The notes beneath the pieces were generated by a model that was not told the origin of the DNA, did no database searches, and saw nothing but the letters and a program-made list of their open reading frames with translations. From Anaerolineaceae bacterium (GTDB taxonomy: Bacteria > Chloroflexota > Anaerolineae > JAAYZQ01), in assembly GCA_012514775.1 (NCBI GenBank), contig JAAYZQ010000183.1, forward strand, positions 1 to 18,606: 18,606 nt of DNA. The letters are read 5' to 3'. Each line of letters opens with the position of its first letter. The stretch's first letter is position 1. Shown one piece after another: positions 2,846 through 17,671 of this stretch. A program made the translations under genes and the position numbers.

Positions 2846-2847
2846 GC

Positions 2848-4449
2848 GTGGAATCACGATCCACCTTTGACCTCGGCCCTGCGACGGGCTGGGCACTGAC
2901 CCTTGTGCTCGCCGTATTTGCCGTGGCGCCCCTCACCTATCCCGGCTTTTTCGAGTCCGAGAGCGGCTTTATCCCCACTTTTCGCGCGGCCGGCCTGGAT
3001 CCGGCGTGGTTCGGCCCCGGGGACCCCGTACGCGGCGAGGGAGCCTTTCCGTACCTGCTGGCCCGGCCCTTCTCTCAGCTCTGGGGAAGTGGCGTGGCCG
3101 CCATCAAGTGGGGCTACGGCCTCTCCTTTCTGCTGGGCGCCTGGGGCGTCTATGCCTGGCTGCGCCGTTGGCTGGGCGGCGGGGGCGCGGTCCTGGGCGC
3201 CGCGGTATACACCTACCTGCCCTGGCACCTGGCAGCGATGTACAGCCGGGGGGAACCCGGCGAGGCCTGGCTGTGGGCGGCCTGGCCCTGGCTCCTGTGG
3301 GCCATCGACCGGCTGGCGGCGGGGCGGCGCGCCGGCATTTTGGCCGCGGCGGCTGTCGGCCTGCCGTCCCTGGGGGTGGCACTGGCGTCCCAGCCCGGCC
3401 TGGCGGTCCTGTCGCTGCCCTTTCTGGCGGCCTATGGCCTGGTGGCCCTTCCGGCGCCGGGACGGGAGGCCCGAACCTCGGGGGGGCTGCGGAGGGCCGC
3501 CGGCATCGGCCTGATCCTGGCCGCGGTCGTCCTCCTGTTCCCCGTCGCCCGCAGCGCACCCCCGCCGCGCGTGGACTTCGAGGCGCATTTCCTGGCTCCG
3601 TTCCAGCTCCTGGCCTCCGGACAGGAACCGGCGGGCGCCGGCCGGCCCCTGGCCGGCATGGGCCTGGCCGCGGCCGGGCTCTCGCTCCTGGCCGGCGGGC
3701 TGTGGCTGGGGCAGCGACGCGCCGGGGGAGAGGAAGCGCACGCGGGCGATCCGCGCCTTGCCCGCCCTCTGGGCTTCTGGGCGGCCGTGCTGCTCCTGCT
3801 CTTGCTCCTCACCCTGCCCGTGGCGGCACCCTTGTGGCGCCTTACCGGCCTCCAGGGACTTCTGACGGTGCCCTGGCAGGTGCTGGCCCTGGCCGGGCTG
3901 CCCCTGGCCTTCCTGGCGGGCTCGGTGGTCCGCCTGGACGAGGACCTGGCCCGGCTGCCGGCCTGGGCGGGGCTGCTGGCCCTGGTCGTCCTGGCCAGCT
4001 ATGGCAGCCTGGACCTCACCTTCACCCAGGTCGATCCCGGGCCCGAGCCGCTGGCCGCCTTTCGTGGCCAGGACGCCCCGCGGCCGCAGGTTCTCCTCCT
4101 CGACACCGAGATCGAACCGCCGGCGGAGATCAGCCCCACCCTGGTGCTGACCGTGACCTGGCAGGCGGTGGAGCCGGTGGCAGTGGATTACACCACGTTC
4201 GTCCACCTGTTGGACGCGGATGGCGACAGGGTGACGCAGCGCGACAGCCAGCCGTGCAGCGGCGAGTGCCCCACCAGCACCTGGCAGCCGGGCACCATCG
4301 TCGTCGACCGCTACGAGCTTGCCCTGGGGGCGGAATCGCCGCCGGGACCCTATACCCTGGCCCTGGGCCTCTATCTCCTGGAGAGCGGCGAGCGGGCCGC
4401 CGTCGTGGGCCGGGAAGATGACAGGATCGTGATCGATGTCCCGCACTAG
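2848..4449 (+). CDS. Large polytopic membrane protein, divergent PTPS-related/GT-C-like
   Basis: A GTG at 2848, two bases after the previous stop, gives 533 residues. The frame is open further upstream, but that part overlaps the conserved AI-2E gene and is not plausible protein. The protein has many hydrophobic segments. Its N-terminal loop and the AAIKWGYGLSFLLGAWGVYAWL segment align by eye with the two following genes. It lacks their HDAxxxxxF...EFD loop motif, having FFESESGFIPTF and a more diverged loop instead, so it may be inactive or have another role. The C-terminal ~110 residues form a soluble beta-rich module with YTTFVHLLDADGD, PTSTWQPG and PPGPYTLALGLYL, a module often found at the end of Chloroflexota glycosyltransferase-like membrane proteins. 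No Shine-Dalgarno sequence is obvious, so translational coupling is likely. The fold assignment is by resemblance and the function is unknown. Confidence 0.7.
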   Translation: MESRSTFDLGPATGWALTLVLAVFAVAPLTYPGFFESESGFIPTFRAAGLDPAWFGPGDPVRGEGAFPYLLARPFSQLWGSGVAAIKWGYGLSFLLGAWGVYAWLRRWLGGGGAVLGAAVYTYLPWHLAAMYSRGEPGEAWLWAAWPWLLWAIDRLAAGRRAGILAAAAVGLPSLGVALASQPGLAVLSLPFLAAYGLVALPAPGREARTSGGLRRAAGIGLILAAVVLLFPVARSAPPPRVDFEAHFLAPFQLLASGQEPAGAGRPLAGMGLAAAGLSLLAGGLWLGQRRAGGEEAHAGDPRLARPLGFWAAVLLLLLLLTLPVAAPLWRLTGLQGLLTVPWQVLALAGLPLAFLAGSVVRLDEDLARLPAWAGLLALVVLASYGSLDLTFTQVDPGPEPLAAFRGQDAPRPQVLLLDTEIEPPAEISPTLVLTVTWQAVEPVAVDYTTFVHLLDADGDRVTQRDSQPCSGECPTSTWQPGTIVVDRYELALGAESPPGPYTLALGLYLLESGERAAVVGREDDRIVIDVPH

Positions 4450-6370
4450 CCGCAGCGCGCACGGCGCGTCGCCGCCCGGGGAGAGGACGAACGGGCGCCA
4501 GGCTTTGCGCCGCCTGGATCCCTACCTGCTGCTCATTGTCCTGCTCTCGCTCCTGCCCATGGCCCCCATGTTGCAGCCCGGATACCAGTGGCACGCCCAC
4601 GACGCACGCCACAGCGTCTACTTCCTGTTCGAGTTCGACCGCGGCATCCAGGACGGCGGCCTCTTTCCCCGCTGGCAGCCCGACTTTGCCTTTGGCTACG
4701 GCTATCCATTCTTTAACATCTACGGGCCGCTGGCCTTTTACGCCGGCGAAGCCCTGCACCTGGCCGGGCTGCCCATCGTCGACGCCGTAAAGGCCATATT
4801 TGCCCTGTCCATCACCCTGTCGGGCCTGGCCATGTACGGCTTTGTCAAGCAGGTGCTGGGCGCGCCGGGCCAGCGCAACGCGGCCGGCCTGGTCGCCGCG
4901 GTGGCCTACATGGTTATGCCCTATCGCCTGGTCGACATCTATGTCCGGGCCGGCCTGGCCGAGTCGGTGGCCTACGTCTGGGTGCCCCTGGTGCTGTGGG
5001 GCACGTGGGCCACGCTCCACCGCCCGCGGCTGGCCAACGTCCTGGGCCTGGCCCTGGCCTATGCCGCCCTGCTCTTTACCCACCCGCTGACGGTCCTGCT
5101 CCTGACGCTGATCCTCGTCTTTTACGTCGCCTTCCTGGCCCTGGCGCGGCTGAAGGACGAGGTGCCCCCGCGTCGATGGACACGCGAGTCGATCCTGCCC
5201 CTGTTCGGGCACCTGGGGCACATCCTGGTGCCCACCGCCTTTGCCCTGGTCCTGGGCCTGGGCCTCAGCGCCGTCTTTGGGCTACCGGCCATGACCGAAA
5301 ACCGCTTCGTGCGCCTCGACCAATGGTACGGCGGCCGGTACACCTGGGGCGGCGATTTCGTCGAGTTCTTCCAGCTCTTCTCACCGCGCTGGGGAATGGG
5401 CGCCAGCGTGCCCGGCCCCGACGACCAGGTCAGCTTTCAATTGGGCGCGGTGCCCGTGGTCCTGAGCCTGGTGGCGGTGGTGAGCCTGCTGATCAGGAGG
5501 AAGGACCGAGCGTTTCGCCTGATCGTATTTTTCGCCGCGTTGGTGCTCGTGGCGGCGTTCCTGATGCTGGAGGCCTCGGCTCCGCTGTGGCAAACGCTGC
5601 CCTTGGTGCGCGTGGTGCAGTTTCCGTGGCGCCTGCTGACATTGACGGTCTTTTCCATGGCCTTTCTGTGCGGGGCGGTTGCCCGCGGAGAGGAGCGGCG
5701 GGGGGGCCTCGTGGATCTGCCGGCCCTGGTGCTCGTACTGCTCCTGCTGCTGAGCAGCCTGCCCTACGCCCGCGCCGAGATGACGGAGCGCGAGGTATCG
5801 CTGGCAGGGCTGATGCGCTTCCAGCAATCAGCCGACGAGATGACCGGCTCCACGGCCTGGGTGCGCGAGATCCCCGGCTGGTCACCCCTGGCCGATCTGC
5901 ACGTGGCGGGCGAGCCACTGACGACAAGGGTGGACTTTGAGTCGCTCTACCGGCAGCGAGGCAACGCCTTTGCCCGCCCCCTGGAGTTCAAGGCCCATCG
6001 CGAGCTGGTAGAGTACCAGGCCGATCGGCCGGTCCTGCTGACGTTCAACGTCTTTTACTACCCCGGCTGGCATGCGTACCTCGTCGACAGGGAGACGAAT
6101 GCCGTGCTGCACGAGCTGCCCATCTCGCTGCGGGGCAAGCTGGGCCTGATCACCGTGCGGCTGCCGGAGGGCACGGGCCGGGTGCTCCTGAGGCTGGAGA
6201 ACACGCCGTTGCGCAGCCTGGGCACGGCCATGACCTTTGCCAGCCTGGCCCTCATCGCCGGGCTGGTGGTCGGCCGGCTGGTCCTGGGGCAGCGGCGGCC
6301 AATCCGGGGCAGGGAGGCCTCCCAGGGAGCCGAAAGCCTGCCAGGCAAGGAACCATGGCCGGACGACTGA
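4436..6370 (+). CDS. 6-pyruvoyl-tetrahydropterin synthase-related membrane protein (YfhO/GT-C-like)
   Basis: The 644-residue polytopic protein has one N-terminal membrane segment and then a predicted extracytoplasmic loop with the signature HAHDARHSVYFLFEFD, WQPDFAFGYGYPFFNIYGPLAFY. This pattern is typical of the family annotated as 6-pyruvoyl-tetrahydropterin synthase related. The acidic loop motif after the first helix resembles the catalytic acidic loop of GT-C glycosyltransferases. About ten further hydrophobic segments follow. After an ARAEMTEREVSL segment a C-terminal beta domain carries FNVFYYPGWHAYLVD, as in YfhO-like proteins, and then a final membrane helix and a basic tail. The start overlaps the previous gene by 14 bp and the end overlaps the next gene by 16 bp, implying one transcript. 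It is a close paralogue of the next gene. A sugar-transfer role is inference. The enzymatic pterin function in the family name is not supported here. Confidence 0.8.
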   Translation: MSRTSRSAHGASPPGERTNGRQALRRLDPYLLLIVLLSLLPMAPMLQPGYQWHAHDARHSVYFLFEFDRGIQDGGLFPRWQPDFAFGYGYPFFNIYGPLAFYAGEALHLAGLPIVDAVKAIFALSITLSGLAMYGFVKQVLGAPGQRNAAGLVAAVAYMVMPYRLVDIYVRAGLAESVAYVWVPLVLWGTWATLHRPRLANVLGLALAYAALLFTHPLTVLLLTLILVFYVAFLALARLKDEVPPRRWTRESILPLFGHLGHILVPTAFALVLGLGLSAVFGLPAMTENRFVRLDQWYGGRYTWGGDFVEFFQLFSPRWGMGASVPGPDDQVSFQLGAVPVVLSLVAVVSLLIRRKDRAFRLIVFFAALVLVAAFLMLEASAPLWQTLPLVRVVQFPWRLLTLTVFSMAFLCGAVARGEERRGGLVDLPALVLVLLLLLSSLPYARAEMTEREVSLAGLMRFQQSADEMTGSTAWVREIPGWSPLADLHVAGEPLTTRVDFESLYRQRGNAFARPLEFKAHRELVEYQADRPVLLTFNVFYYPGWHAYLVDRETNAVLHELPISLRGKLGLITVRLPEGTGRVLLRLENTPLRSLGTAMTFASLALIAGLVVGRLVLGQRRPIRGREASQGAESLPGKEPWPDD

Positions 6371-8124
6371 GAGGGTTAGTGGCATCCCCTGGCGATCGGG
6401 TCTCCCGCCCGGACCCGGCCCTGTGGCTGGTGATCGCCTTTTCGCTCCTGGCGGCCACGCCGCTGGCGGGGCCCGACTATTTCTTTGACGCCCACGACGC
6501 GCCCAACACGGTGTTCTTCCTGACCGAGTTCGACGCCGCGCTGCGCGACGGGGTCTGGTATCCCGGCTGGGCCACCGACCAGGCGCTGGGCTACGGCTAC
6601 CCCACCTTTGTGCTGTACCCGCCCCTGGCCTATTACGCCGCCGAGGGGTTCCACCTGATGGGCGCGACCAAGGTGGCGGCCGTCAAGTGGACCTTTGCCC
6701 TGGCGACGCTGGGTGCCGGCCTGGCGATGTACGCTTACGGCCGCCGGGTGCTCGGCCGCTGGCCGGGCCTTCTGGCCGCCGTCGTTTATGTCTACATGCC
6801 CTATCACCTGGTGGACATTTACGTGCGGGCGGCCCTGGCCGAGTACTCGGCCTTTGTCTGGATGCCCCTGGCGCTGCTGGCCTTTCACAAGCTGGCCGAC
6901 GGATTCTCCCTCCGGCGCCTGGGGGCGGCGGGGCTGGCTTATGGAGCGCTGTGGCTGACCCACAACCCCACGGGGTTGACCTTCACGCCCGTTCTGGCCG
7001 CCTACGTCCTGTGGCGCCTGCTGGCCCAACCCGCACCCTGGGGCGAGCGGCTGCGCCGCGCCGGAGGCGCCCTGGCGGCTTCAATCCTGGGGTTGGGCAT
7101 AGCAGCGGCCCTGCTGGTGCCCAACCTGCTGGAGCGAGGCTATATCAACCAGGAACAATGGGTCCGGGCCGGCTACGACTACGCGCTCCATTTCGTGCCG
7201 CTGGCCGGGCTTCTGTCCACCGCCTGGGGCTACCTGCCCGGCCCGCCGGGCACCGAGGGCGGCATGTCTGTGCAACTGGGCGTCGTGCCCCTCGTCCTAG
7301 CGGCGGTGGCCGTCCTTGGCCTGGGCCGCCGGGCGCCGTCGGAGCGGGGGACGATCCTCTTTTTCCTGGCAGCGACGCTCCTCGTGGTGCTGCTCATGAT
7401 GCCCATCGCGGCGCCGCTGTGGAACGCGCTGCCCATCGCCGCCCTCATCCAGTTTCCGTGGCGCCTCCTGGCCGTGACGGCTGTCACCCTCTCGGTCCTG
7501 TCGGCCCTGGCGCTGAACGGCAATGGCGCCGAGGTCGGGCCAGCGGCGGGCCGCGGCCCGGTCCTTGCCCTGGCCCTGGTGGCGGTGCTGGGCAGCTATG
7601 CCTACGCCCGGCCGCAGTACACGCCCACACCCGAAAGTGCCGAGAGCCCGCTGCTGAGCATCGAATTCGAGCTGGAGTACGAGGACATGCGGGGCATGAC
7701 CGCCTGGGCGGAAGAAATGCCGTCTACCTCGCCCCTGGTGGAGCAATACCTGGCGGGCGAGCCCCTGGTGACCGCCGAGGCGCTGGCCCCGGACGCCGAA
7801 ATTGAGATGATCCGGGCCGGAGGAGCCTCTGACGAGCTGTGGGTGCGGTCGCCGGCGGGCACGGCCCTGCGATTTTATACCTACTACTTTCCCGGCTGGC
7901 GGGTGAGCATCGATGGCGAGCGCCTGCCCGATTCGGCCTTGAGGGCCGAGACCGAGTACGGGCTGCTCACCGTCGACGTGCCCGCCGGCGAGCATCGCGT
8001 CCTGCTGCGCTGGGGCGACACGCCGCAACGCCTGGCCGCGAAAATCGTAACGGTAGTGAGCCTTCTCCTGGCGCTGGCGCTGGTGCTGGCCGGGCCAGCG
8101 GTTGGCAAAAGGGTCAAGCTCTGA
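6355..8124 (+). CDS. 6-pyruvoyl-tetrahydropterin synthase-related membrane protein (YfhO/GT-C-like), paralogue
   Basis: The 589-residue polytopic protein is clearly homologous to its upstream neighbour. The first extracytoplasmic loop reads FFDAHDAPNTVFFLTEFD (about residues 43-60), followed by WATDQALGYGYPTFVLYPPLAYYAAEG. VYVYMPYHLVDIYVRAALAE matches the MPYRLVDIYVRAGLAE of the neighbour. Near the C-terminus FYTYYFPGWRVSIDGERLP and a GLLTVDVPAGEHRVLLRW beta domain precede a final membrane helix and a KRVKL tail. AGGAA at 6348-6352 lies just before the ATG, and the gene overlaps the previous one by 16 bp. A promoter for the following operon sits in its last codons. It is probably an envelope or polysaccharide enzyme of GT-C type, by resemblance only. 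Confidence 0.8.
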   Translation: MAGRLRGLVASPGDRVSRPDPALWLVIAFSLLAATPLAGPDYFFDAHDAPNTVFFLTEFDAALRDGVWYPGWATDQALGYGYPTFVLYPPLAYYAAEGFHLMGATKVAAVKWTFALATLGAGLAMYAYGRRVLGRWPGLLAAVVYVYMPYHLVDIYVRAALAEYSAFVWMPLALLAFHKLADGFSLRRLGAAGLAYGALWLTHNPTGLTFTPVLAAYVLWRLLAQPAPWGERLRRAGGALAASILGLGIAAALLVPNLLERGYINQEQWVRAGYDYALHFVPLAGLLSTAWGYLPGPPGTEGGMSVQLGVVPLVLAAVAVLGLGRRAPSERGTILFFLAATLLVVLLMMPIAAPLWNALPIAALIQFPWRLLAVTAVTLSVLSALALNGNGAEVGPAAGRGPVLALALVAVLGSYAYARPQYTPTPESAESPLLSIEFELEYEDMRGMTAWAEEMPSTSPLVEQYLAGEPLVTAEALAPDAEIEMIRAGGASDELWVRSPAGTALRFYTYYFPGWRVSIDGERLPDSALRAETEYGLLTVDVPAGEHRVLLRWGDTPQRLAAKIVTVVSLLLALALVLAGPAVGKRVKL

Positions 8125-8130
8125 TATAAT
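8102..8130 (+). promoter_or_regulatory. Near-consensus sigma-70 promoter upstream of the LysM / radical SAM operon
   Basis: TTGGCA (8102-8107), a 17-bp spacer and a perfect TATAAT (8125-8130) form the best promoter match seen in the window. It overlaps the last codons and stop (8122-8124) of the preceding membrane-protein gene. Transcription would start near 8137, giving a leader of about 30 nt before ATG 8168. This separates the five-gene block at 8168-13502 from the upstream membrane-protein genes. Confidence 0.7.
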
Positions 8131-8167
8131 GGGCGCAGCTCATCCGGAAATGGAGCCTAAGCCGACC

Positions 8168-9427
8168 ATGGAACCGACTCCCCAACGACGGTGTCCCCAA
8201 TGTGGGACACCCGTGGCACAACGGGCGGAGACTTGCCTGATGTGCGGGGCAAATCTGAAAGAACAGAAGAGCCGGGTTCCCCAGCTTTCGCAGGGCGACC
8301 TTACCTGGCCGATGTTGATCATCCTGGGAATTGCCGTCCTGTGGCTATGGAAGCCGTGGCAGGTGGAAGAGCCGCAGGCCATGGCCCCGGCGACGGCCGT
8401 CGCGACGTCTACGCCGACGGTCCGGCCGACGGCCACCTACGTCTCGGCGCCCACGGCCACCCCCCTCGTGTCGCCCACGCCGTCGCCGACTGCCACGCTG
8501 CCCCCGAACCAGACCCGGCACACCGTCGAGGCGGGCGAGCTGGTGGGCACCATCGCCAAGAAGTACGGCACCACGACCGAGGCCATCCTCCAGGCCAACG
8601 GGCTCAAGACCAACTCTATCATATCCCCGGGCCAAGAGCTGATCATCCCGCTGCCCCTGGCCAACACTTCGACGCCGACTGTGACGCCAAGCCCGTCGCC
8701 AACCCCCTTCGAATACACTATCAAGCAGGGTGAGACCCTGAGCGAGATTGCCAAGCGCTACAAGACCACCGTGGAAGCGCTGATGGGGGCCAACGGCATC
8801 GTCGATGCGACGAGCGTGCGCGCGGGCACCAAGCTCAAGATCGTGGGGCCGCCGGACTTTTCGGCGACCATGGCTTACGAGACCTACGAGGTAAAGCAGG
8901 GCGACACCCTATACACCATCGCCAGCGATTACTCGGTCAGCGTGGCCACCATCAAGGAGGTCAACAATCTGACGGGCGACAAGCTCAGCGTGGGCCAGGG
9001 CCTCCGCATCCCGGTCGGCACGGCCACGCCGGCACCGACGCTGACGCCCACCATTACGCCGACGCCCACGCCGGGACCTGCCCGGCCGGCCCCCGCGCTG
9101 TTGGCCCCGCCGGATGGGGCGAGCTTTGAGGGAGCAGGGGCGGCCATTGTCTTGAGCTGGGCTTCGGTGGGAATCCTGGAACAGGACGAATGGTACGTGC
9201 TGCGCGTGCGGCGCTCAGGCCCCCTGGCCCAGCAATTGCCGGCCGTGTGGACCAAGGCGACGTCGTGGCGGCTGCCCCCGGAGCTATACGTGGCGGGGCT
9301 GGAACAGCCGCAGCGCTTCTACTGGCACGTGACCATCATGCGCCAGACGGGCACAGACGAGGATGGAAGCAGGGTCGGCGAGATGGTCAGCCCGTCGACG
9401 GACACTCGCACCCTGACCTGGAAGTGA
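8168..9427 (+). CDS. Zinc-ribbon, membrane-anchored protein with three LysM domains
   Basis: ATG 8168 gives 419 residues. An N-terminal zinc ribbon has CxxC pairs at C9/C12 and C23/C26. A basic stretch and one membrane helix (about 47-63) follow, then a Thr/Pro-rich linker. Three LysM domains lie at about residues 117-161, 182-226 and 239-283, with the typical forms GETLSEIAKRY and GDTLYTIASDY. A second TPTP-rich linker leads to a C-terminal beta domain of about 110 residues beginning ALLAPPDGASFEG. The zinc ribbon should be cytoplasmic, with the LysM domains outside binding peptidoglycan or another N-acetylglucosamine polymer. The frame is open upstream. ATG 8150 is an alternative start, while ATG 8129 is unlikely because it lies in the -10 box and would precede the transcription start. 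GGAG at 8152-8155 is a rather distant Shine-Dalgarno for 8168. The next gene starts 22 bp after the stop. Confidence 0.85.
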   Translation: MEPTPQRRCPQCGTPVAQRAETCLMCGANLKEQKSRVPQLSQGDLTWPMLIILGIAVLWLWKPWQVEEPQAMAPATAVATSTPTVRPTATYVSAPTATPLVSPTPSPTATLPPNQTRHTVEAGELVGTIAKKYGTTTEAILQANGLKTNSIISPGQELIIPLPLANTSTPTVTPSPSPTPFEYTIKQGETLSEIAKRYKTTVEALMGANGIVDATSVRAGTKLKIVGPPDFSATMAYETYEVKQGDTLYTIASDYSVSVATIKEVNNLTGDKLSVGQGLRIPVGTATPAPTLTPTITPTPTPGPARPAPALLAPPDGASFEGAGAAIVLSWASVGILEQDEWYVLRVRRSGPLAQQLPAVWTKATSWRLPPELYVAGLEQPQRFYWHVTIMRQTGTDEDGSRVGEMVSPSTDTRTLTWK

Positions 9428-9449: not shown

Positions 9450-9821
9450 ATGAGCACCGGCAAGATTATCGGCTACGTCGTGGCAGGCATCCTGCTCTTT
9501 TTTGGCGTGTTGTGGCTGCTTTCGGCCTTTAGCGCCGGGACCGCCAGTCCGGTCGGCCGGTTGGTGGTTGGCGGCATCCTGGTCCTCATCGGGCTGGGCA
9601 TCATTGTCGCCGTGCGACTCAGGGAACCCAAGCCCGAGCAGCAGGTCACCATCCGGCAGGAGATCGAAATCGGTGGCGACGTGGACGTGCAAGAGCTAAA
9701 GTGCCGCAACTGTGGCTCGCAGCTCGGCAAAGAGGACATTACCGTGGTCGAAGGCGCGGTGATGGTCTCCTGTTCCTACTGCGGGGCCAACTATCAGATC
9801 GTCGAGGAACCCAAATGGTAG
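9450..9821 (+). CDS. Small two-helix membrane protein with C-terminal zinc ribbon
   Basis: The 123-residue protein has two hydrophobic segments (about residues 7-28 and 37-55) joined by a short loop. A hydrophilic linker leads to a treble-clef/zinc-ribbon-like end with C85, C88, C108 and C111 in CRNC and CSYC. The topology probably places both termini in the cytoplasm, so the zinc site would be internal. A strong AGGAGG at 9437-9442 lies 7 nt before the ATG. It sits between the LysM gene (22 bp upstream) and the DUF2207-like gene (22 bp downstream), in the same direction. No named family is recognised. Like the preceding gene, it joins a zinc ribbon to a membrane anchor, which suggests a shared assembly or adaptor role, but that is inference. 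Confidence 0.8.
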   Translation: MSTGKIIGYVVAGILLFFGVLWLLSAFSAGTASPVGRLVVGGILVLIGLGIIVAVRLREPKPEQQVTIRQEIEIGGDVDVQELKCRNCGSQLGKEDITVVEGAVMVSCSYCGANYQIVEEPKW

Positions 9822-9843
9822 GTTGTCACGGGGAGGGGAGAGG

Positions 9844-11502
9844 ATGATAGACGGGAGACTGCCCAGGGCCCTTGCCGTGGCCTTGATGGCCGCGCTGCTT
9901 GTGGCCGCGGTTGCGGTGCCCGCGGCCGTAGCGCAGGAATATCGCGCCGGGGTACCGGAGCAGGTGGTAAACCTGTTCATCAACCCGGACGGCACGGTGG
10001 ACGTTATCTATGACATCACGCTCACAGCCGACCCGAGCTCGGGTCCCATTGACGTGGTAGACTTGGGCATGCCCACTGACGACTATAGCAACGTTTCAGC
10101 CTCGCTCGACGGCGTGATGCTGGACACGCCATTTCCTTCGCCTTACGTCGATCCAGGCGTGGCCGTGGAATTCGGCGCGCAGGCCATTCGGCCGGGTGAC
10201 ACCGGAACCCTGCACCTGGAAGCCACCGTGCGCAACATGATCTACCAGGACACCGACGACACAGAGTATGCCAGCCTCCAGTTTGCGCCGACCTATTACG
10301 ACAGCGATTACGTCTATGGCGACACCCGCCTGGAGGTGAACTTTGCCTTTCCACCCGGCGTGGGCTCCGAGGATCCCCGCTACCACGAGCAAGAGTTCAC
10401 CGAAGCCCGCGTCGAGGATGGCCGCGTGATCTATACCTGGGTCCGCGAGGATGCCAGCCCCAGCCGCGAGTACCGGTACGGCGCTTCGTTCCCCAAGGCG
10501 GTCCTGGCAGAGGGCGTCGTCCAGGCGGCCCCGGCCTTTAACATCGATTTCACCGCCTGCTGCAACAGCCCCCTCATCTGGATTGCACTCTTTGGCGGGG
10601 GCTGGGCGCTGCTGGCTGCCCTGGGGGCCCGCTCGCAAAAGAAGCGCAAGATGCAGTACCTGCCGCCCTCCCTGGCCGTGGAGGGCACGGGCATCAAGCG
10701 CGGCCTGACTGCGGTCGAGGCGGCCGTGCTGCTGGAAGCGCCCCTCAACAAGGTAGTGACCATGATCCTCTTTGGCCTGGTCAAGAAGGGGGTCGTGGCC
10801 GTCGAGTCGGAAAAGCCGCTCAAACTGCGGGTACTCCGCGAAGAATCGCCGGACCTGAAGTTGTGGTACTACGAGCGGCGATTCGTGAAGGCCATCGAAG
10901 AGGACGGAAGACTGGACGAGTCGGCGCTCCGGGACATGATCATCGACCTCATCGGCGATGTGAACAAGAAGCTGACGGGCTTTGCCCGCAACGATACGAA
11001 GGCATACTACAAGGACATTGCCGCGCGTGCCTGGAACCAGGTCGAGGCGGCCGATACGCCCGAGGTGTTGGGCAAGCGCTGGAGCGAGGGCCTGGAGTGG
11101 ACGATGCTCCAGGACGATTGGGACGACCGCACCCGCGACGTCTTTCGCGACCGGCCGGTGGTGCTGCCCAGCTGGTGGTGGTTCTACCGGCCCTGGGCTG
11201 CCGGCGCCGGGATGCCGCGACCCACGGCGGCGGGGCCTTCCGCGTCGCCCCTGGGCGGCGGCACACCCGTGACCCTGCCCACCCTGCCCGGCGGCGACTT
11301 TGCCAACACGGTGGTGACGGGCATCGAGAACGCAGCCAACACCGTAGTCAGCAGCGTCGAGAGCTTTACCGGCAAGGTGGCCCAGACCACCAACCCGCCG
11401 CCCAAGCCCTCCAGCACGAGCAGGGGCGGTGGCGGGTATAGCTGTGCCTGTGCCTGCGCCTGTGCCGGCTGCGCGTGCGCCTGCGCCGGTGGAGGGCGCT
11501 AG
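9844..11502 (+). CDS. DUF2207-like membrane protein with Cys-Ala-rich C-terminal tail (candidate modified protein)
   Basis: ATG 9844 follows a GGGAGGGGAGAGG Shine-Dalgarno region and gives 552 residues. A signal peptide (about 1-31) ends in AVA/Q. An extracytoplasmic beta-rich domain of about 210 residues follows, with FINPDGTVDVIYDITL near its start, as in DUF2207-type proteins. One membrane helix lies at about 243-263, followed by a basic RSQKKRK stop-transfer. The cytoplasmic part has a winged-helix-like segment (GLTAVEAAVLL...ILFGLVKKGVVAVE, about 285-325), as in DUF2207, then a helical region with WSEGLEW and a Gly/Pro/Thr-rich linker. The last 20 residues contain seven cysteines alternating with alanine, ending in GGGR. 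With a cleaved signal and one helix, this tail is in the cytoplasm. A nucleotidyltransferase gene starts on the next base and a radical SAM gene follows. The DUF2207 assignment is by resemblance. The tail is directly visible. Confidence 0.75.
   Translation: MIDGRLPRALAVALMAALLVAAVAVPAAVAQEYRAGVPEQVVNLFINPDGTVDVIYDITLTADPSSGPIDVVDLGMPTDDYSNVSASLDGVMLDTPFPSPYVDPGVAVEFGAQAIRPGDTGTLHLEATVRNMIYQDTDDTEYASLQFAPTYYDSDYVYGDTRLEVNFAFPPGVGSEDPRYHEQEFTEARVEDGRVIYTWVREDASPSREYRYGASFPKAVLAEGVVQAAPAFNIDFTACCNSPLIWIALFGGGWALLAALGARSQKKRKMQYLPPSLAVEGTGIKRGLTAVEAAVLLEAPLNKVVTMILFGLVKKGVVAVESEKPLKLRVLREESPDLKLWYYERRFVKAIEEDGRLDESALRDMIIDLIGDVNKKLTGFARNDTKAYYKDIAARAWNQVEAADTPEVLGKRWSEGLEWTMLQDDWDDRTRDVFRDRPVVLPSWWWFYRPWAAGAGMPRPTAAGPSASPLGGGTPVTLPTLPGGDFANTVVTGIENAANTVVSSVESFTGKVAQTTNPPPKPSSTSRGGGGYSCACACACAGCACACAGGGR
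11440..11499 (+). other. Cys-Ala alternating tail of the DUF2207-like protein, possible radical SAM substrate
   Basis: These 20 codons read S, then CACACACAGCACACA, then GGGR. The seven cysteines are residues 534, 536, 538, 540, 543, 545 and 547. Cysteine codons mix TGT and TGC and one alanine is GCG rather than GCC, so this is not a plain nucleotide repeat and selection on the peptide is likely. A GGxxxx-like Gly/Ser/Thr linker precedes it (residues about 515-532). GGAGGG at 11491-11496, coding part of the GGG end, also serves as the Shine-Dalgarno of the next gene. The tail could be a metal-binding or redox segment, or the target of thioether or other modification by the adjacent SPASM enzyme. 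Confidence 0.7.
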
Positions 11503-12144
11503 ATGCCCGAGGAAGAGGGCCTCTCCTACGAAGAGACGCTCCGCCAGGGGGGCGAGAGCATGCTTCGTGAGGCGAGTGCCTACTTTGCCGGTGCGGGTCG
11601 CTTGTACGGAACGCTGCGCCGGCTCGCCGAGCGCCTGGAAGCAGCCGGGATTCCCTACGCCCTGTTGGGAGGCCTGGCCCTGGCCCAGCACGGCTATCCA
11701 CGGCTGACGGAGGATATCGACGTGCTGCTCACGGCCGAGGGCCTGGAGCTGTTTCGCCAGACCTTTATCGGCCGGGGCTATCGCCCTGCTTTTCCCGGGG
11801 CGACGAAAACCTTTCGCGACGCCGAAAGCGCCGTCCGGATCGAGATGGTGACAACCGGGGAGTATCCCGGCGATGGACGGCCCAAGCCGGTGGCATTTCC
11901 CGATCCGGGGGATCCGGGAGTTGCTTTCGAGGTCGAGGGTGTCCGCATCGTGACGCTACACACGCTCGTCGAGCTCAAGCTAGCTTCCGGCACCACGGCG
12001 TCACACCGCCTGCGTGACCTGGCCGACGTCCAGGACCTCATCGTGCGCCTCAACTTGCCCCTGTCGCTTGCCGACGCCCTGGATGCGTCGGTGCGAGGGG
12101 CTTATCGGGACCTGTGGAACAAGGCACAGGAGGGGACAGTATGA
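11503..12144 (+). CDS. Nucleotidyltransferase-fold protein (Pol-beta-like / AbiEii-like)
   Basis: The 213-residue protein has a helical N-terminal region of about 45 residues and then a nucleotidyltransferase-superfamily core. The core carries LLGGLALAQHG (GG at 56-57) and the metal-binding pair in TEDIDVLL (D71, D73), with a possible third carboxylate E114 in VRIEM. A C-terminal helical region with LVELKLASG and LRDLADVQDLI is typical of AbiEii/DUF-type minimal nucleotidyltransferases. Such enzymes transfer a nucleotide from NTP to protein, RNA or small-molecule acceptors, and the acceptor here is unknown. The ATG follows the previous stop directly, and its Shine-Dalgarno (GGAGGG, 11491-11496) lies inside the Cys-Ala tail gene. 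Its stop overlaps the radical SAM start as ATGA. This tight coupling suggests that the three proteins act together. No antitoxin or toxin partner typical of AbiE systems is seen. Confidence 0.75.
   Translation: MPEEEGLSYEETLRQGGESMLREASAYFAGAGRLYGTLRRLAERLEAAGIPYALLGGLALAQHGYPRLTEDIDVLLTAEGLELFRQTFIGRGYRPAFPGATKTFRDAESAVRIEMVTTGEYPGDGRPKPVAFPDPGDPGVAFEVEGVRIVTLHTLVELKLASGTTASHRLRDLADVQDLIVRLNLPLSLADALDASVRGAYRDLWNKAQEGTV
12128..12135 (+). promoter_or_regulatory. Shine-Dalgarno deciding the radical SAM start
   Basis: AGGAGGGG lies 5 nt before ATG 12141, inside the end of the nucleotidyltransferase gene. It favours ATG 12141 over an in-frame upstream GTG at 12114 and creates a 4-bp ATGA overlap (12141-12144) typical of translational coupling. 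Confidence 0.75.
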
Positions 12145-13502
12145 CAATCGTCGATCGCATCAAGAGCTGGTTCGAGCCGTACCGGCCCTTGCCGCCGGGC
12201 ATCTATCACTACCAGACGCCGCCCGACGCCGCGCACCAGTACCGGCTGCACCTGCGCGTCGAAAAGGACGGCCACGGCGTGCTGCTCATCAACGCCGCAC
12301 GCGTCTTGCACCTGAACCAGACGGCCACGGAGCACGCCCGGCTGCTCATCGAGCACAGGACGGAGGAGGAAGCGGCCCGCGAGATCGCCCGGCGCTACGA
12401 CGTGAAGCTGGAAACGGCCCGGGCGGATTTTACCACCTTGCAGGAGGCCGTCGTCACCATCGCCGAGGGGGGCGAGGAGATTTGCCCCGTCAGCTACCTG
12501 GAAGTGGAGCGCGTCGAGCCCCTGAGCCCCGTGCTCTCGGCGCCCTACCGCATGGACCTGGCCCTGACCTACCGCTGCCAGAACGACTGCCCCCACTGCT
12601 ACGTCGGCCGGCCCAAGGACTTTCCGGAGATGGCCACCGAGGACTGGAAGCGGGTCATCGACGCCTGCTGGGAGCAGGGCATCCCCCACATGACCTTCAC
12701 GGGCGGCGAGGCCACCCTGCGCCCGGACCTGGTGGAGCTGGTGCAGTACGCCGAAGACGTGGGGCTGGTGACGGGCCTCCAGACCAACGGCCGGCGGCTG
12801 CGGGACCGCGCCTACGTGGACCAACTACTCCTCGCCGGGCTGGACCACGTCCAGATCACGCTGGAGAGCCACGACCCGGCGATCCACGACAGAATGTCCG
12901 GGGCCCAGGGCGCCTGGGAAGAGACCGTGGCCGGCATCAAGACCGTGGTCAATGCTGACGTGTACATGATGACCAACACCACGATCACCACGGAAAACGT
13001 GGACAGCATCGAGGAGACCATCGCCTTTGCCGCCTCGCTGGGGGTGCCCACCTTTGGCTGCAACAGCCTGATCTACTCGGGCTCGGGGGTGTGCGTCGGG
13101 AGCGGCATCCCCGAGGATCAACTGCAGCCCATCCTGGAGCGGGTGAAGGACGCCACCACGGCGCACGAGATGCGCCTCATCTGGTACACACCCACCCAGT
13201 ACTGTGAGTTCGACCCCACCGGCCTGGAGCTGGGCATCAAGGGCTGCACGGCGGCGCGCTACAACATGGCGGTCGAGCCCAACGGCGACGTCCTGCCCTG
13301 CCAGAGCTACTTTGTGTCGCTGGGCAACATCCTCACCACGCCGTGGGAAGAGATCTGGGAGCACGAGCTGGCCCGCTACCTGCGCAACCGGGACTTCAAG
13401 ATGACCAAGTGCTACAACTGCCCGGACCAGGTACTGTGCGGCGGCGGCTGCCCGCTCTACAATCAGCACCAGGACGAGGAGAGCCTCGGCCAGGAGGTCT
13501 AG
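12141..13502 (+). CDS. Radical SAM/SPASM protein with N-terminal PqqD-like (RRE) domain, putative peptide maturase
   Basis: The protein has 453 residues. Residues about 35-110 resemble a PqqD-like RiPP recognition element: GVLLINAARVLHLNQTA, then a TEEEAAREIARRYDV helix-turn-helix segment. The radical SAM core follows with CxxxCxxC at C146, C150 and C153 (CQNDCPHC) binding the [4Fe-4S] cluster, and GGEATLRPDL for SAM binding. The C-terminal SPASM domain has C369-x12-G-x4-C387 and CX2CX5CX3C at C424, C427, C433 and C437. The usual last SPASM cysteine is absent, because the protein ends 16 residues after C437. C355 could be an extra ligand. RRE plus SPASM is the architecture of enzymes that modify ribosomally made peptides (as in PqqE with PqqD, and sactipeptide or ranthipeptide maturases). 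The likeliest local substrate is the Cys-Ala tail encoded two genes upstream. The family call is firm and the substrate is inferred. Confidence 0.88.
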   Translation: MTIVDRIKSWFEPYRPLPPGIYHYQTPPDAAHQYRLHLRVEKDGHGVLLINAARVLHLNQTATEHARLLIEHRTEEEAAREIARRYDVKLETARADFTTLQEAVVTIAEGGEEICPVSYLEVERVEPLSPVLSAPYRMDLALTYRCQNDCPHCYVGRPKDFPEMATEDWKRVIDACWEQGIPHMTFTGGEATLRPDLVELVQYAEDVGLVTGLQTNGRRLRDRAYVDQLLLAGLDHVQITLESHDPAIHDRMSGAQGAWEETVAGIKTVVNADVYMMTNTTITTENVDSIEETIAFAASLGVPTFGCNSLIYSGSGVCVGSGIPEDQLQPILERVKDATTAHEMRLIWYTPTQYCEFDPTGLELGIKGCTAARYNMAVEPNGDVLPCQSYFVSLGNILTTPWEEIWEHELARYLRNRDFKMTKCYNCPDQVLCGGGCPLYNQHQDEESLGQEV

Positions 13503-13510
13503 GTTCTTCC

Positions 13511-13571
13511 TCACCCGGACGCCCTGGCGCCCATCGCCAGGGCAGCTATCTCTTCCGGTGGGAGAGGAGAA
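13511..13571. repeat. REP-like imperfect palindromic intergenic element
   Basis: A nested palindromic stretch starts about 9 bp after the radical SAM stop. The outer arms are roughly CCTCACCCGG and CCGGTGGGAGAGG, and the inner part is a perfect hairpin, GCCCTGGCG (13521-13529), loop CCCAT, CGCCAGGGC (13535-13543). The form CCTCACCC...CTCTTCCGGTGGGAGAGG resembles dispersed intergenic palindromes that recur in many GC-rich bacterial genomes. Only one copy lies in this window, so dispersal cannot be shown here. The inner hairpin, followed by AGCTATCTCTTCC, might also act as a weak terminator for the upstream operon. Confidence 0.4.
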
Positions 13572-13589
13572 CGGCCCGATTGCGTGCTC

Positions 13590-13680
13590 GCGGCGGTCCC
13601 CAGAACCGCCGCCGTGCCTGTTGCCAGGCAAGGGTCATTCTGCGTGTGGATCCTCGCGGCAAGCCGGCCGGGAGGCCGGC
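13590..13680. repeat. Cluster of three further hairpins before the RCC1 gene
   Basis: Three perfect inverted repeats follow each other: GCGGCGGT (13590-13597) with ACCGCCGC (13605-13612); GCCTG (13616-13620) with CAGGC (13625-13629); and GCCGGCC (13663-13669) with GGCCGGC (13674-13680) around a GGGA loop. None has a T-tract. An A-rich, low-GC stretch (13699-13731) then precedes the RCC1 gene. I see no convincing promoter in the 260-bp gap and no match to a known riboswitch. It may be a structured leader or a set of repetitive palindromes. Confidence 0.4.
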
Positions 13681-13762
13681 GTGTGGCCCTCTGCGTTGGA
13701 AAACAACCAAAACAAAAAACCCAAAGAGGCGTCGAGGAACGACGCAGATAGGAACAAAGGAG

Positions 13763-16700
13763 ATGGGACACAACGACAATCACGGCGGTTCTCCGTTTCG
13801 TGCCGCGTGGCAGGCTTTGGTGCTGCCAGCGGGCCTTGGGCTGCTAGGGGCCCTGGCGCTGCTGGCCTGGTGGCCGGGGGCTGCCCGGGCGGACGAGCCC
13901 GCTCCCGCCCGCGTGCTGCCCGAAACGCTCAGCGCCGGGATCTATCACACCTGTGGGTTACGCGCCGACGGAAGCGTGGCTTGCTGGGGTAACAACGTCA
14001 ACGGCCAGGCGCCAGCGTCGGTGGGTGAGCCCGGCGACTATGTCCAGGTCAGCGCCGGAGGCTATCACACCTGCGGGTTACGCGGCGACGGAAGCGTGGG
14101 CTGCTGGGGGAACAACGACGACGACCAGGCGCCGGCGTCGGTGGGCGACGCTGGCGACTATGTCCAGGTCAGCGCCGGCTTGTATCACACCTGCGGGGTA
14201 CGCCCCGACGGCCGCGTGGCCTGCTGGGGGAACAACGACGACGGCCAGGCGTCGCCGCCGGCCCATGCCGCCGGCGACTATCTCCAGGTCAGCGCCGGAG
14301 GCTATCACACCTGTGGGCTAAAGAGCGACGGCAGCGTGGCCTGCTGGGGGCGGAGCGACTACAGCCAGGCGCCGGCGGCGGTGGGCGCCGGCGGCGACTA
14401 TGTCCAGGTCAGCGCCGGAGGCTATCACACCTGCGGGTTACGCGCCGACGGCCGCCTGGCCTGCTGGGGGCGGAACGACTACAGCCAGGCGCCGGCGGTG
14501 GAGGGCGCCGCCGGCGACTATGTCCAGGTCAGCACCGGCATGGGTCACACCTGCGCGGTACGCGCCGACGGAAGCGTGGCCTGCTGGGGCTACAACGTGT
14601 ACGGCCAGGCGTGGCCGCCGGCCCATGCCGCCGGCGACTATCTCCAGGTCAGCGCCGGAGGCTATCACACCTGTGGGCTAAAGAGCGACGGCAGCGTGGC
14701 CTGCTGGGGGCGTAACAACGACGGCCAAGCGCCGGCGTCGGTGGGCGACCCCGGCGACTATGGCCGGTCCCAGCTCAGCTCCGGGGGCTATCATACCTGT
14801 GGGTCAGGCGCCGACGGCAGCGTGGCCTGCTGGGGGCGCAACAACGACGGCCAGGCGCCGGCGGTGGAGGGCGCCGCCGGCGACTATGGCCGGTCCCAGC
14901 TCAGCTCCGGGGTCTTTTACACCTGTGGGACACGCGCCGACGGAAGCGTGGCCTGCTGGGGGAACAACGACGACGGCCAGGCGCCGGCGGTGGAGGGCGC
15001 CGCCGGCGACTATGTCCAGGTGAGCGCCGGAACCTGGCACACCTGCGCGGTACGCCCCGACGGAAGCGTGGCTTGCTGGGGGAGGAACGACAACGGCCAG
15101 GCGCCGGCGTCGGAGGGCGGCGCCGGGGATTTTGTCCAGGTCAGCGCCGGGACCTGGCACACCTGCGGGCTACGCCCCGACGGCCGCGTGGCCTGCTGGG
15201 GGAACGACCTGTACGGCCAGGCGTCGCCGCCGGCCCATGTCGCCGGCGACTATCTCCAGGTCAGCGCCGGGAACAGTCACACTTGCGGGCTAAAGAGCGA
15301 TGGCAGCGTGGCCTGCTGGGGCTACAACAACAACGGCCAGGCGCCGGCGTCGGTGGGCGCCGCCGGCGACTATGTCCAGGTCAGCGCCGGGAACTCGCAC
15401 ACCTGTGGGGTACGCCCCGACGGCCGCGTGGACTGCTGGGGGCGGAACGACGAAGGCCAGGCGCCGGCGTCGGTGGACGCCGCCGGCGATTCTCTCCAGG
15501 TCGGCGCCGGGGGCTTTCACACCTGCGGGCTAAAGACCGACGGCGGCGTGGCCTGCTGGGGGCAGAACACCTACGGCCAGGCGCCTCGCCTGTCGCTGGC
15601 GCCGGCCACGCTGCCCTGCGCCCCGGCCGGCGAGGCCTACTACCAGGCCCTGCCCCCTGCCGGCGGCGGGACGGCGCCCTACACCTACACGGCCATCGCC
15701 GGCACACCCCCGCCGGGCCTGGCCCTGTCGGCCGGCGGCGTCCTGACCGGCACGCCGGCGGCCGCGGGTTTCTATACCTGGACGGTGCGGGCCAGCGATT
15801 CCTCTCCCCTGCCCTTTTCCGTCGAGGAGGTCTACAGCCTGACCGTCGGCGGGCCCCTGGTCCATGCCGATCCCGCCGGCGCTTGCGGCGGCGGCGAGCC
15901 CTGTTTTGTTGCGCTCCAGGAGGCCGCCGCCTGCGCCCAGTTCGGCGGCATCGTCGACGCCCACGGCGCCACCTACGGCGAGGACCTGACCGTCACTCGC
16001 GCCCTGACCCTCACCGGCGCACCCATCCTGAACGGCAGCCTGGTCGTGGGCGACGGGCTGGTGGGCTACTGGCCCCTGGACGAGGGCAGCGGCCCGGCCG
16101 CCGGCGACGCCTCGGGCAGGGGCCACGACGGCACGCTGACCAACGGCCCGGCCTGGACAGCCACGGCTGCCCCCCTGGCCTTTGGCAGCCCCCATGCCCT
16201 GGCTCTGGACGGCACGGACGACGTCGTGCTCGTCGCCGGCGCACCCGACCTGGGCTTTGACGACAACCTGGCCTTTAGCCTGGCCGCCTGGGTGCGGACC
16301 GACAGGACGACGGCCCAGGAGGATGGGGCGGCCATCGTCGCCCGGGGCACCGATGGCGGCGAGCAGTACGTCATCGATATCCTTGGCGGCCAGTTTCGCT
16401 TCTTTGTCCGCGATGGCGCCGGGGGCGGCGGCTATGACGTCCGGGCTACCGACGTCTGGACCGCCACCGCCGGCTGGACGCACGTGGCCGCCGTGTTCGA
16501 CGCCGGCCGGGAGCTCATGGCCCTGTACGTGAACGGGGTGGAGCAGGACCGCCGCCTGCCGCCGGCGTCGCTCCTGGCCAACAGCGACGAGGTGTCCATC
16601 GGCAGCCGGAAGGGCCAGGGCGGCAGCTACGATGGCAGCTTCCAGGGGCAGATCGACGACGTGCGCATCTATGACCGGGCGCTGCCGGCTCCCGAGATCG

Positions 16701-17671
16701 CCGCCCTGGCCGCGGGCGGCCACAACAACACCCTGGTGCTTGGCGCCGGCCTGGACCTGAACGGCGACCTGACCCTCAACGCCGCCCTGCTGGACGCCGG
16801 CGCCGGAGGCCAGGCCCTCAACCTCAGCGGCGACTGGACGAGCCACGGCGGCGCCTTTGCCGCGCGGGCGAGCACCGTGCGCTTTGACGGTGCCCAGGTG
16901 CAGACCATCGCCGGCGACGTGGCCTTTTACGACCTGGCCGTGGGCGTGGGGGTCAGCCTGACCACCGCCTCAGAGGTGAGCGCCGGAGGAACACTGACCA
17001 ACCTGGGCTGGACGGTGGAGAGCAAGGCCATCGGCGGCGCGGGGGAGCGGGCCTTTGGCCTGGCCGGCGTCACGGTGGACGTGGTGACACCGGGCAGCCT
17101 GTCGGCCCTGGTGGTGGCCCGCCGCGACCAGGACCATCCCCAGGCCCACCCGACAACCGCCACCGGCCGCTACTGGCGCATCACGCCCACGGGCAGCGGC
17201 TACACGGCCGGCCTGACCCTGCCCCACGCCGGCCTGGCCGACCCGTACGCCAGCAGGTACCTGGGGTCAAACTGGGACTGGGGACGCGACACCTATGATG
17301 CCGGCAGCGTGACCCGCGGCGGCATCACCGCCTTTTCCGAGTGGGCAGTCAGTGAGGGCGCCCCGGCTGTGGCCACACCGGTGCTGCTCGGCCCGGCCGA
17401 CGGCACGAGCATGACCACCACCAGCCTGACCCTGACCTGGCAGGCCAGCCTCCACGCCACCGGTTACTACCTCAACCTGGATGGCACGGTGCACGACGTG
17501 GGCAACACCACCCAGTATGCCACCGGCCCCCTGGCCGGCGGCGTTCACACCTGGACCGTGGCGGCCTACAACGTGCCGGCAAACGTCAGCCCCTACGCCG
17601 CCACCTGGTCGTTCACCGTCCAGCCCAGGTTCTGGACCTATCTGCCGCTGCTGGTCAGGAACCAACCTTGA
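13763..17671 (+). CDS. Secreted multidomain protein: RCC1 repeats, putative Ig, LamG-like and FN3-like domains
   Basis: ATG 13763 gives 1302 residues. A signal peptide (about 1-44) has a basic/hydrophobic start and ARA/DE at the cleavage site. Residues about 60-608 are 14 RCC1-like repeats, enough for two seven-bladed propellers. Next come a putative Ig module (about 613-697: GTPPPGLALSAGGVLTGTP), a segment resembling the start of a parallel-beta-helix repeat (CGGGEPCFVALQEAAA, about 712-760), and a LamG/concanavalin-like domain (about 765-980: GYWPLDEGSG, GWTHVAAVFD, GQIDDVRIYDRAL). A low-complexity beta region and an FN3-like domain (about 1203-1290) follow, ending in WTYLPLLVRNQP. It is an extracellular or surface protein, probably a carbohydrate- or protein-binding adhesin. 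AGGA at 13750-13753 lies 9 nt before the ATG. The open frame extends upstream into the radical SAM gene, but those residues are not plausible protein. It is isolated from neighbours by a hairpin-rich gap and a terminator. Confidence 0.88.
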   Translation: MGHNDNHGGSPFRAAWQALVLPAGLGLLGALALLAWWPGAARADEPAPARVLPETLSAGIYHTCGLRADGSVACWGNNVNGQAPASVGEPGDYVQVSAGGYHTCGLRGDGSVGCWGNNDDDQAPASVGDAGDYVQVSAGLYHTCGVRPDGRVACWGNNDDGQASPPAHAAGDYLQVSAGGYHTCGLKSDGSVACWGRSDYSQAPAAVGAGGDYVQVSAGGYHTCGLRADGRLACWGRNDYSQAPAVEGAAGDYVQVSTGMGHTCAVRADGSVACWGYNVYGQAWPPAHAAGDYLQVSAGGYHTCGLKSDGSVACWGRNNDGQAPASVGDPGDYGRSQLSSGGYHTCGSGADGSVACWGRNNDGQAPAVEGAAGDYGRSQLSSGVFYTCGTRADGSVACWGNNDDGQAPAVEGAAGDYVQVSAGTWHTCAVRPDGSVACWGRNDNGQAPASEGGAGDFVQVSAGTWHTCGLRPDGRVACWGNDLYGQASPPAHVAGDYLQVSAGNSHTCGLKSDGSVACWGYNNNGQAPASVGAAGDYVQVSAGNSHTCGVRPDGRVDCWGRNDEGQAPASVDAAGDSLQVGAGGFHTCGLKTDGGVACWGQNTYGQAPRLSLAPATLPCAPAGEAYYQALPPAGGGTAPYTYTAIAGTPPPGLALSAGGVLTGTPAAAGFYTWTVRASDSSPLPFSVEEVYSLTVGGPLVHADPAGACGGGEPCFVALQEAAACAQFGGIVDAHGATYGEDLTVTRALTLTGAPILNGSLVVGDGLVGYWPLDEGSGPAAGDASGRGHDGTLTNGPAWTATAAPLAFGSPHALALDGTDDVVLVAGAPDLGFDDNLAFSLAAWVRTDRTTAQEDGAAIVARGTDGGEQYVIDILGGQFRFFVRDGAGGGGYDVRATDVWTATAGWTHVAAVFDAGRELMALYVNGVEQDRRLPPASLLANSDEVSIGSRKGQGGSYDGSFQGQIDDVRIYDRALPAPEIAALAAGGHNNTLVLGAGLDLNGDLTLNAALLDAGAGGQALNLSGDWTSHGGAFAARASTVRFDGAQVQTIAGDVAFYDLAVGVGVSLTTASEVSAGGTLTNLGWTVESKAIGGAGERAFGLAGVTVDVVTPGSLSALVVARRDQDHPQAHPTTATGRYWRITPTGSGYTAGLTLPHAGLADPYASRYLGSNWDWGRDTYDAGSVTRGGITAFSEWAVSEGAPAVATPVLLGPADGTSMTTTSLTLTWQASLHATGYYLNLDGTVHDVGNTTQYATGPLAGGVHTWTVAAYNVPANVSPYAATWSFTVQPRFWTYLPLLVRNQP
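13940..15590 (+). repeat. Fourteen tandem 120-bp RCC1-type coding repeats
   Basis: Units are 120 bp (40 residues), except units 7 and 8, which are 126 bp. Each follows HTCGLRxDGSVACWGxNxxGQAPA...GDYVQVSAG with two cysteines in a CX9C arrangement in every unit, probably disulfide-bonded outside the cell. The DNA is nearly identical between some units: 14281-14350 and 14641-14710 match over about 70 bases. A higher-order pattern is visible, because the pair with PPAH..AGDYLQVSAG followed by LKSDGSVACWG recurs at units 3/4, 6/7 and 11/12. This points to recent unequal crossing-over. Confidence 0.9.

Follow-up and report, generated by a model that had tools for sequence, protein, structure and literature searches.

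The 18,606-nucleotide stretch analysed here (positions 1 to 18,606 of contig JAAYZQ010000183.1 from an Anaerolineaceae bacterium, hereafter the window) carries on its forward strand a gene for a membrane-anchored protein with a Cys-Ala tail and, close by, a gene for a radical S-adenosylmethionine (SAM) enzyme that we propose to be the maturase of this tail. Four genes, designated Z, A, B and C, are read in the same direction and tightly packed. Gene A, which encodes a 552-residue carrier, runs from an ATG at 9844 to a stop codon at 11502, with an in-frame TTG at 9823 as a further possible start. Directly upstream lies Z (9450..9821), a membrane protein gene whose Pfam zinc-ribbon matches fall under the cut-offs. 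Downstream, the nucleotidyltransferase gene B (11503..12144; PF14907/AbiEii-type) is inserted between A and C, and C (ATG at 12141, ending at 13502) encodes a 453-residue enzyme combining a recognition element (RRE) of ribosomally synthesized and post-translationally modified peptides (RiPPs) with radical SAM and SPASM domains. A and B are separated by no gap, and B and C overlap by 4 bp (ATGA); the gene coordinates and spacing given by a first-pass annotation of the sequence all hold.

The C-terminus of A reads SCACACACAGCACACAGGGR, or in its longer form ...GGGGYSCACACACAGCACACAGGGR. Specifically, the Cys-Ala tail CACACACAGCACACAGGGR (11443..11499), comprising seven Cys and seven Ala residues, is the proposed substrate, and its conservation is extreme. 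A has 1244 homologues at E≤1e-5, and among the 120 matches listed the last 19 residues are identical in 119, the exception (P0126) being a partial record. In a 34-row alignment that combines the window protein with eight of these 120 homologues and 25 sequences from other loci, identity to A falls as low as 28%, and the last ten columns are invariant (100% identity) and the most conserved of 543 ten-residue windows. At the DNA level, the same peptide, CACACAGGGR, is encoded by 33 different strings at 33 loci with CAG or CA6 tails (see below), indicating that selection acts on the peptide and not on repeat DNA. The tail is also more than chance would give: the CACACA pattern occurs at one locus per genome in 10 genomes encoding a relative of C, where the reversed control gives 0 or 1 match. 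Cys and Ala are equally frequent in four of the seven tails counted (7:7, 6:6, 9:9 and 11:11), and across the seven nearly every Cys adjoins an Ala.

An AlphaFold2 model of A, built from the 34-row alignment (mean pLDDT 82, pTM 0.48), predicts a signal peptide, an extracytoplasmic beta domain, a single transmembrane (TM) helix at residues 243-270 (10570..10653), a cytoplasmic part with winged-helix-like and helical portions, and a disordered tail. Hydropathy across the 34 rows gives an N-terminal segment and the TM helix in most proteins; some show a third one, within the winged-helix part. Because A has a predicted signal peptide and one TM helix, its tail is predicted to be cytoplasmic, on the same side as C, a placement that the first-pass annotation had also made. 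Two helices (residues 483-501 and 505-516; 11290..11391) precede the linker and the tail, and the alignment conserves a pattern LPGxDFA..VV in the helical segment, followed by TNP. These helices are a possible recognition segment for the RRE of C.

C matches PF05402 (PqqD), PF04055 (Radical_SAM) and PF13186 (SPASM) above the Pfam gathering scores, confirming the PqqD-like and SPASM domains recognised in the first-pass annotation; for the RRE, the PF05402 match scores 29.1 bits against a cut-off of 23.4. The CxxxCxxC cluster motif (residues 146-153; 12576..12599) and the SPASM cysteines (369, 387, 424, 427, 433 and 437; 13245..13451) are present in all 29 catalytic rows of an alignment and in none of five rows of C2, a relative described below. 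The AlphaFold2 model of C (pLDDT 87, pTM 0.85) has SkfB as its top match and SuiB as its other nearest solved fold in Foldseek, with the epimerase EpeE among the fold neighbours; by sequence, PqqE is the best match, accompanied by SkfB. Judged by Pfam matches, cysteines and fold, C has the make-up of a radical SAM-SPASM maturase, the enzyme type of sactipeptide systems. Among the best 25 of 78 families compared, C stays below the curated cut-off of every named NCBIfam radical SAM equivalog, including PqqE (139 bits against 381), NirJ2, SkfB and AlbA. An Anaerolineae bacterium has the closest named homologue of C, at 91% identity.

The association of C with Cys-repeat proteins was surveyed in 684 genomes (301 Chloroflexota, 194 Thermoplasmatota and 189 Bacillota), the three phyla being taken from the organisms of the initial centre genomes. 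All 44 family enzymes with the CxxxCxxC motif that the searches returned, in 43 genomes, adjoin a gene for a Cys-repeat protein, and a first independent contig scan for relatives of C had already given ten loci, all ten with such a protein beside the enzyme. The first-pass annotation had proposed the tail as substrate of the RRE-radical SAM-SPASM enzyme and had named homologues of the enzyme gene standing consistently without Cys-tailed neighbours as one finding that would refute it; none of the 44 is of that kind, and the tail is retained, on sequence grounds, as the proposed substrate. Gene order varies, with the repeat gene before, after or divergent from the enzyme gene, and the two remain neighbours throughout. 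The carrier is truncated or interrupted in the assembly at a few loci (L112, at a contig edge, and L003, L111 and L163).

In Chloroflexota, C finds matches at E≤1e-60 in 22 of 301 genomes, comprising 22 CxxxCxxC genes in 21 genomes plus motif-less C2 copies. The tail pattern occurs in 21 of the 301 genomes: 20 with a strong enzyme match, and G183, where the match was rejected as chance because no such reading frame exists. The remaining two enzymes (G021 contig 252 and G146) adjoin A-like proteins with Cys-His-Ser-Ala (CHSA) repeats, and a double-CHSA pattern is found in exactly these two genomes of the 301. In Thermoplasmatota, 11 enzymes in 11 of 194 genomes all adjoin repeats. Fifteen further genomes of this phylum have the pattern and no enzyme; one locus was examined in each, and none resembles a tail protein, the match in G494 (L075) lying in partly masked sequence and being ambiguous. 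In Bacillota, 11 enzymes occur in 11 of 189 genomes, nine beside Cys-Ala repeats and two (G512 and G599) beside CHSA repeats; G683 is a real enzyme-tail pair, and in the stretches examined of G608, G626 and G651 the pattern takes the form of simple repeats only.

A maximum-likelihood tree of the 44 survey enzymes and window C shows that tail type follows enzyme ancestry. The rows fall into five tail types, CAG (21), CACV (8), CA6 (7), GGCT (5) and CHSA (4), each of which corresponds to one enzyme group with ultrafast bootstrap values of 93-100. Tail type changes four times on the tree, the minimum, against a mean of 22.2 for shuffled types, and none of 200 shufflings was as low. The CHSA clade joins Chloroflexota with Bacillota and the CACV clade joins Thermoplasmatota with Bacillota; the deep joins are less sure, owing to a long-branch warning (L147, L151 and the branch to CHSA). 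In G021, which has two pairs, one CAG and one CHSA, each enzyme groups with its own tail type. An automatic repeat expression scored 40 of 45 tails because shorter CAG tails and irregular CHSA tails escape it; those missed (L003, L092, L099, L106 and L107) were typed from sequence, and for L114 and L147, where the automatic match lay in another reading frame, the true tails were identified separately.

The CHSA repeats, which sit on A-like carriers and have an enzyme clade of their own in two phyla (L106, L107, L163 and L164), would represent a second repeat chemistry. Proteins P0242-P0247 of this type end in ...DACHSACHSACVS[DK]F.

Taken together, these findings make it very probable that C modifies the tail, and we consider it likely that A and C form a RiPP-like system in which the core peptide, instead of being released, is the C-terminal Cys-repeat segment of a carrier anchored in the membrane. 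Maturases of the RRE-SPASM type recognise a segment flanking the core and remove hydrogen from the acceptor residue. A would be exported up to its single TM helix, leaving the winged-helix-like part, the helices and the tail in the cytoplasm, and C would use its RRE for docking, probably to the conserved helices and TNP region next to the tail, and direct a 5'-deoxyadenosyl radical at the repeated Ala residues. Most likely, each Cys sulfur would then be joined to an Ala carbon in a sactionine-type thioether, with a loss of 2 Da each, and the product would remain tethered at the inner face of the membrane alongside the zinc-ribbon partner Z. The pseudo-radical SAM protein C2 and a methyltransferase, M, probably take part as well in most of the Chloroflexota examples. 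For the chemistry as such, Cys-to-Ala thioethers stand at about even chances; Ala is a documented acceptor in RumC1, where Ala12 receives the thioether (PMC8172795). We rate equally balanced the broader proposal of a cross-domain class of protein-tethered RiPPs, in which a radical SAM enzyme converts Cys-Ala or Cys-His-Ser-Ala repeats on a membrane protein into an uninterrupted rod, crosslinked or stereochemically rebuilt, that stays attached for good and serves as a protein-borne functional group at the membrane instead of a natural product. The biological role of the modified tail of A would perhaps be metal or redox sensing, or that of an anchoring structure.

Several observations weigh against parts of this proposal. 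The fold of C does not single out thioethers: its near structural neighbour SuiB forms carbon-carbon crosslinks, and in sequence C is most similar to PqqE. Replacement of their own acceptors by Ala is not tolerated by AlbA and PapB (PMC8172795), and Cys and Ala numbers are unequal in three of the seven tails counted (10:9, 6:5 and 9:7). No protease or transporter recurs across clades, in an annotation covering part of the open reading frames (ORFs) in which Z, C2 and M did recur, so the locus does not look like a classical RiPP cluster. In the four Thermoplasmatota CACV carriers, cytoplasmic zinc-ribbon-type CxxC pairs replace the recognition segment of A, and Bacillota CACV carriers continue after the repeat, which is therefore near-C-terminal only. 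One Chloroflexota genome (G106) has a C2 pseudo-enzyme alone, with no tail gene in the 9 kb examined. Finally, family enzymes may have been missed in the survey, since scoring covered no more than 5-8 candidates per genome.

The strongest competing explanation, which we hold to be a serious possibility although the less probable one, is that C modifies the tail by another reaction, such as epimerisation of Ala or Cys, formation of carbon-carbon or S-C-beta bonds or some other radical SAM chemistry, leaving the Cys free for metal. The co-occurrence and the tree fit it equally, SuiB and EpeE are among the fold neighbours of C, and cyclopropylglycine is the product of TvgB, a radical SAM enzyme that works on a repeated motif (PMC9062424); however, the simplest reading of the strict pairing between Cys and neighbouring Ala is that of donor and acceptor, and the top fold match, SkfB, is a thioether enzyme. 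After Cys-to-Ala thioethers, epimerisation is the next choice. We regard as improbable that the tail is an unmodified Cys array serving as a metal or redox site, with C acting on Z or on another part of A; alternating Cys residues suit metal binding, and zinc-ribbon-type motifs occur in Z and in the CACV carriers. Chance, a repeat-DNA artefact or a neutral operon habit, suggested by the simple-repeat matches in G608, G626, G651, G183 and the 15 enzyme-less Thermoplasmatota genomes (in that phylum the reversed control also matches, in 11 genomes), can be set aside almost entirely in view of the 33 distinct DNA versions of one peptide, the absence of the reversed pattern from all 301 Chloroflexota genomes and a pairing kept across two domains and differing gene orders.

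If tail modification by C is correct, RiPP-type radical chemistry also serves, in both bacteria and archaea, to equip membrane proteins with permanent structures. A single enzyme family would have diversified in step with at least five types of repeat, making enzyme-substrate specificity readable from sequence, and a substrate that is short, repetitive and invariant opens the tail chemistry to direct testing. A clue to the simple-sequence tails of many DUF2207/TIGR04222-like membrane proteins would follow as well.

Searches of the open-licence literature listed no account of a pair consisting of a radical SAM enzyme and a Cys-repeat membrane protein. The nearest published idea concerns TIGR04222 ('near_uncomplex') membrane proteins with Cys-rich ends beside multinuclear non-heme iron-dependent oxidative (MNIO) enzymes (PMC12452194). 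Like A, these are integral membrane proteins with a low-complexity, Cys-bearing C-terminus and a RiPP-type enzyme as neighbour, whereas the enzyme is an MNIO and not a radical SAM protein, the tails, rich in Ser and Gly with Cys scattered among them, are predicted to be periplasmic, in place of strict Cys repeats predicted to be cytoplasmic, and the association is loose, 490 of 1372 genomes lacking MNIO genes, in contrast to 44 of 44 here (PMC12452194). That paper has no 'rSAM' in its text and mentions 'radical SAM' only twice. None of the ten window proteins scanned, a scan limited to the window, is an MNIO enzyme.

Sactipeptide and ranthipeptide maturases, such as SkfB and the enzyme of PDB 5wgg/5why, which we take to be CteB, share with C an RRE-type N-terminus followed by radical SAM and SPASM domains, are its fold neighbours and have Cys-rich substrates. 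Those substrates are small peptides that undergo cleavage and export, whereas the candidate substrate of C is the end of a 552-residue membrane protein, and C falls far under the curated cut-offs of the maturase families listed. QhpD resembles our proposal for C in that a radical SAM enzyme makes thioethers inside a larger protein, QhpC, that retains them; unlike A, QhpC belongs to a dehydrogenase as a subunit, carries single crosslinks and has neither repeats nor a membrane anchor (PMC8172795). In the TvgB/TvgA pair, one radical SAM enzyme likewise works on a short repeated motif, and Asp-Cys repeat peptides have been reported beside radical SAM genes, yet both are peptide precursors with other motifs, and the available text mentions neither Cys-Ala or CHSA repeats nor a membrane carrier (PMC9062424).

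A itself has no match in Pfam or NCBIfam. The first-pass annotation had called it DUF2207-like, a description that holds only through distant relatives and is weak for the window protein itself, which matches neither DUF2207 family (PF09972/PF20990; no family even at E≤1, gathering score not reached). Each of these two domains gives weak matches in two of the 34 A-family members, and one CHSA-tailed relative (L107) passes PF09972, with 25.5 bits against a cut-off of 24.4. DUF2207 proteins usually have more than one TM helix and differ in this from A, which has one. One published study of DUF2207 function concerns stress tolerance in Streptococcus mutans (PMC10457818). Window A likewise has no match to TIGR04222 (curated cut-off 43 bits); the model weakly matches the TM and winged-helix region in eight of the 34 members at E≤1 (best 2.4e-5), and the six relatives with displayed bit scores reach 16-24, below that cut-off. 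Searches for a solved structure of A gave one chance-level match by sequence (E 0.36) and, by fold, a likeness of the beta domain to M1-peptidase and oligosaccharyltransferase subunits at low coverage (TMq about 0.25), which was functionally uninformative.

Three relatives of the A domains without a Cys tail (L119, L120 and L121) have no C-type enzyme in the 8-10 kb examined at each. One of these, at L121:2916-4991, is DUF2207-like with a glycine-rich tail devoid of Cys, the stretch examined there being 8 kb; another, at L119:3442-6078, is an 878-residue ORF with an apparent protein-kinase-like start, a stretch of which matches the beta domain of A (E 1.6e-23). The Thermoplasmatota CACV carriers resemble A in their N-terminal region by eye, with SWWWFY kept in three of four, and one of them (L114) matches PF13453 (1.5e-20). 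A viral-contig scan for carriage of the system returned four matches; CACACAGGGR closes a reading frame in just one of them (L124), and viral carriage was rejected. That IMG/VR contig has phage-like genes, and its 15-kb record is without a match to C; the frame is a 98-residue fragment at the edge of the examined part of the contig (L124:5856-6152), ends in GGGGGGGCACACAGGGR and may belong either to a different carrier with three Cys or to the flank of a provirus.

Among the neighbouring genes, B matches PF14907 and PF08843 above the Pfam gathering scores. The first-pass annotation had counted this nucleotidyltransferase as a component, an assignment we withdraw: tblastn at E≤1e-3 detected B at none of 51 other loci (L009 and L151 being the same place), and in L001, where C is 84% identical to window C, A and C lie 2 bp apart, so B is judged to be outside the system. 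Z, on the other hand, finds tblastn matches at 28 of these 51 loci in Chloroflexota and Thermoplasmatota, sits immediately before A on gene maps, and is judged to belong to the system. C2 combines an RRE with a radical-SAM-like part lacking the CxxxCxxC and SPASM cysteines and is a conserved pseudo-enzyme beside the active enzyme; it follows C in 19 of 20 Chloroflexota CAG loci (L002, L003 and L089-L105; for instance L090:8789-9943). M, a class I methyltransferase, lies near in 16 of the 20 Chloroflexota CAG loci (L002, L003, L089-L096 and L099-L104) and in six of seven Thermoplasmatota CA6 loci (L006 and L109-L113, convergent with C), and may act on the modified tail. The C2 and M counts come from profiles built on the same clusters, with a weaker M match in L097 excluded. 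Neither C2 nor M is present in the window, and the Bacillota loci yielded neither Z nor C2 nor M; the common core of the system is A and C. As for a small precursor peptide, of which the first-pass annotation had seen no gene nearby, no such family recurs among ORFs of at least 60 residues, shorter ones lying outside the clustering, and the candidate substrate is instead the tail of the 552-residue protein.

Elsewhere in the window, a 1442-residue frame right after C (13343-17671), whose true start is probably later than 13343, contains 14 RCC1-type repeat stretches together with an Ig-like and a laminin-G-like domain. Upstream, three large membrane-protein genes with weak PTPS_related, PMT_2 or YfhO matches lie in series with slight overlaps (2560-8124), and they are followed by a gene for a protein with a zinc ribbon and three LysM domains (8102-9427).

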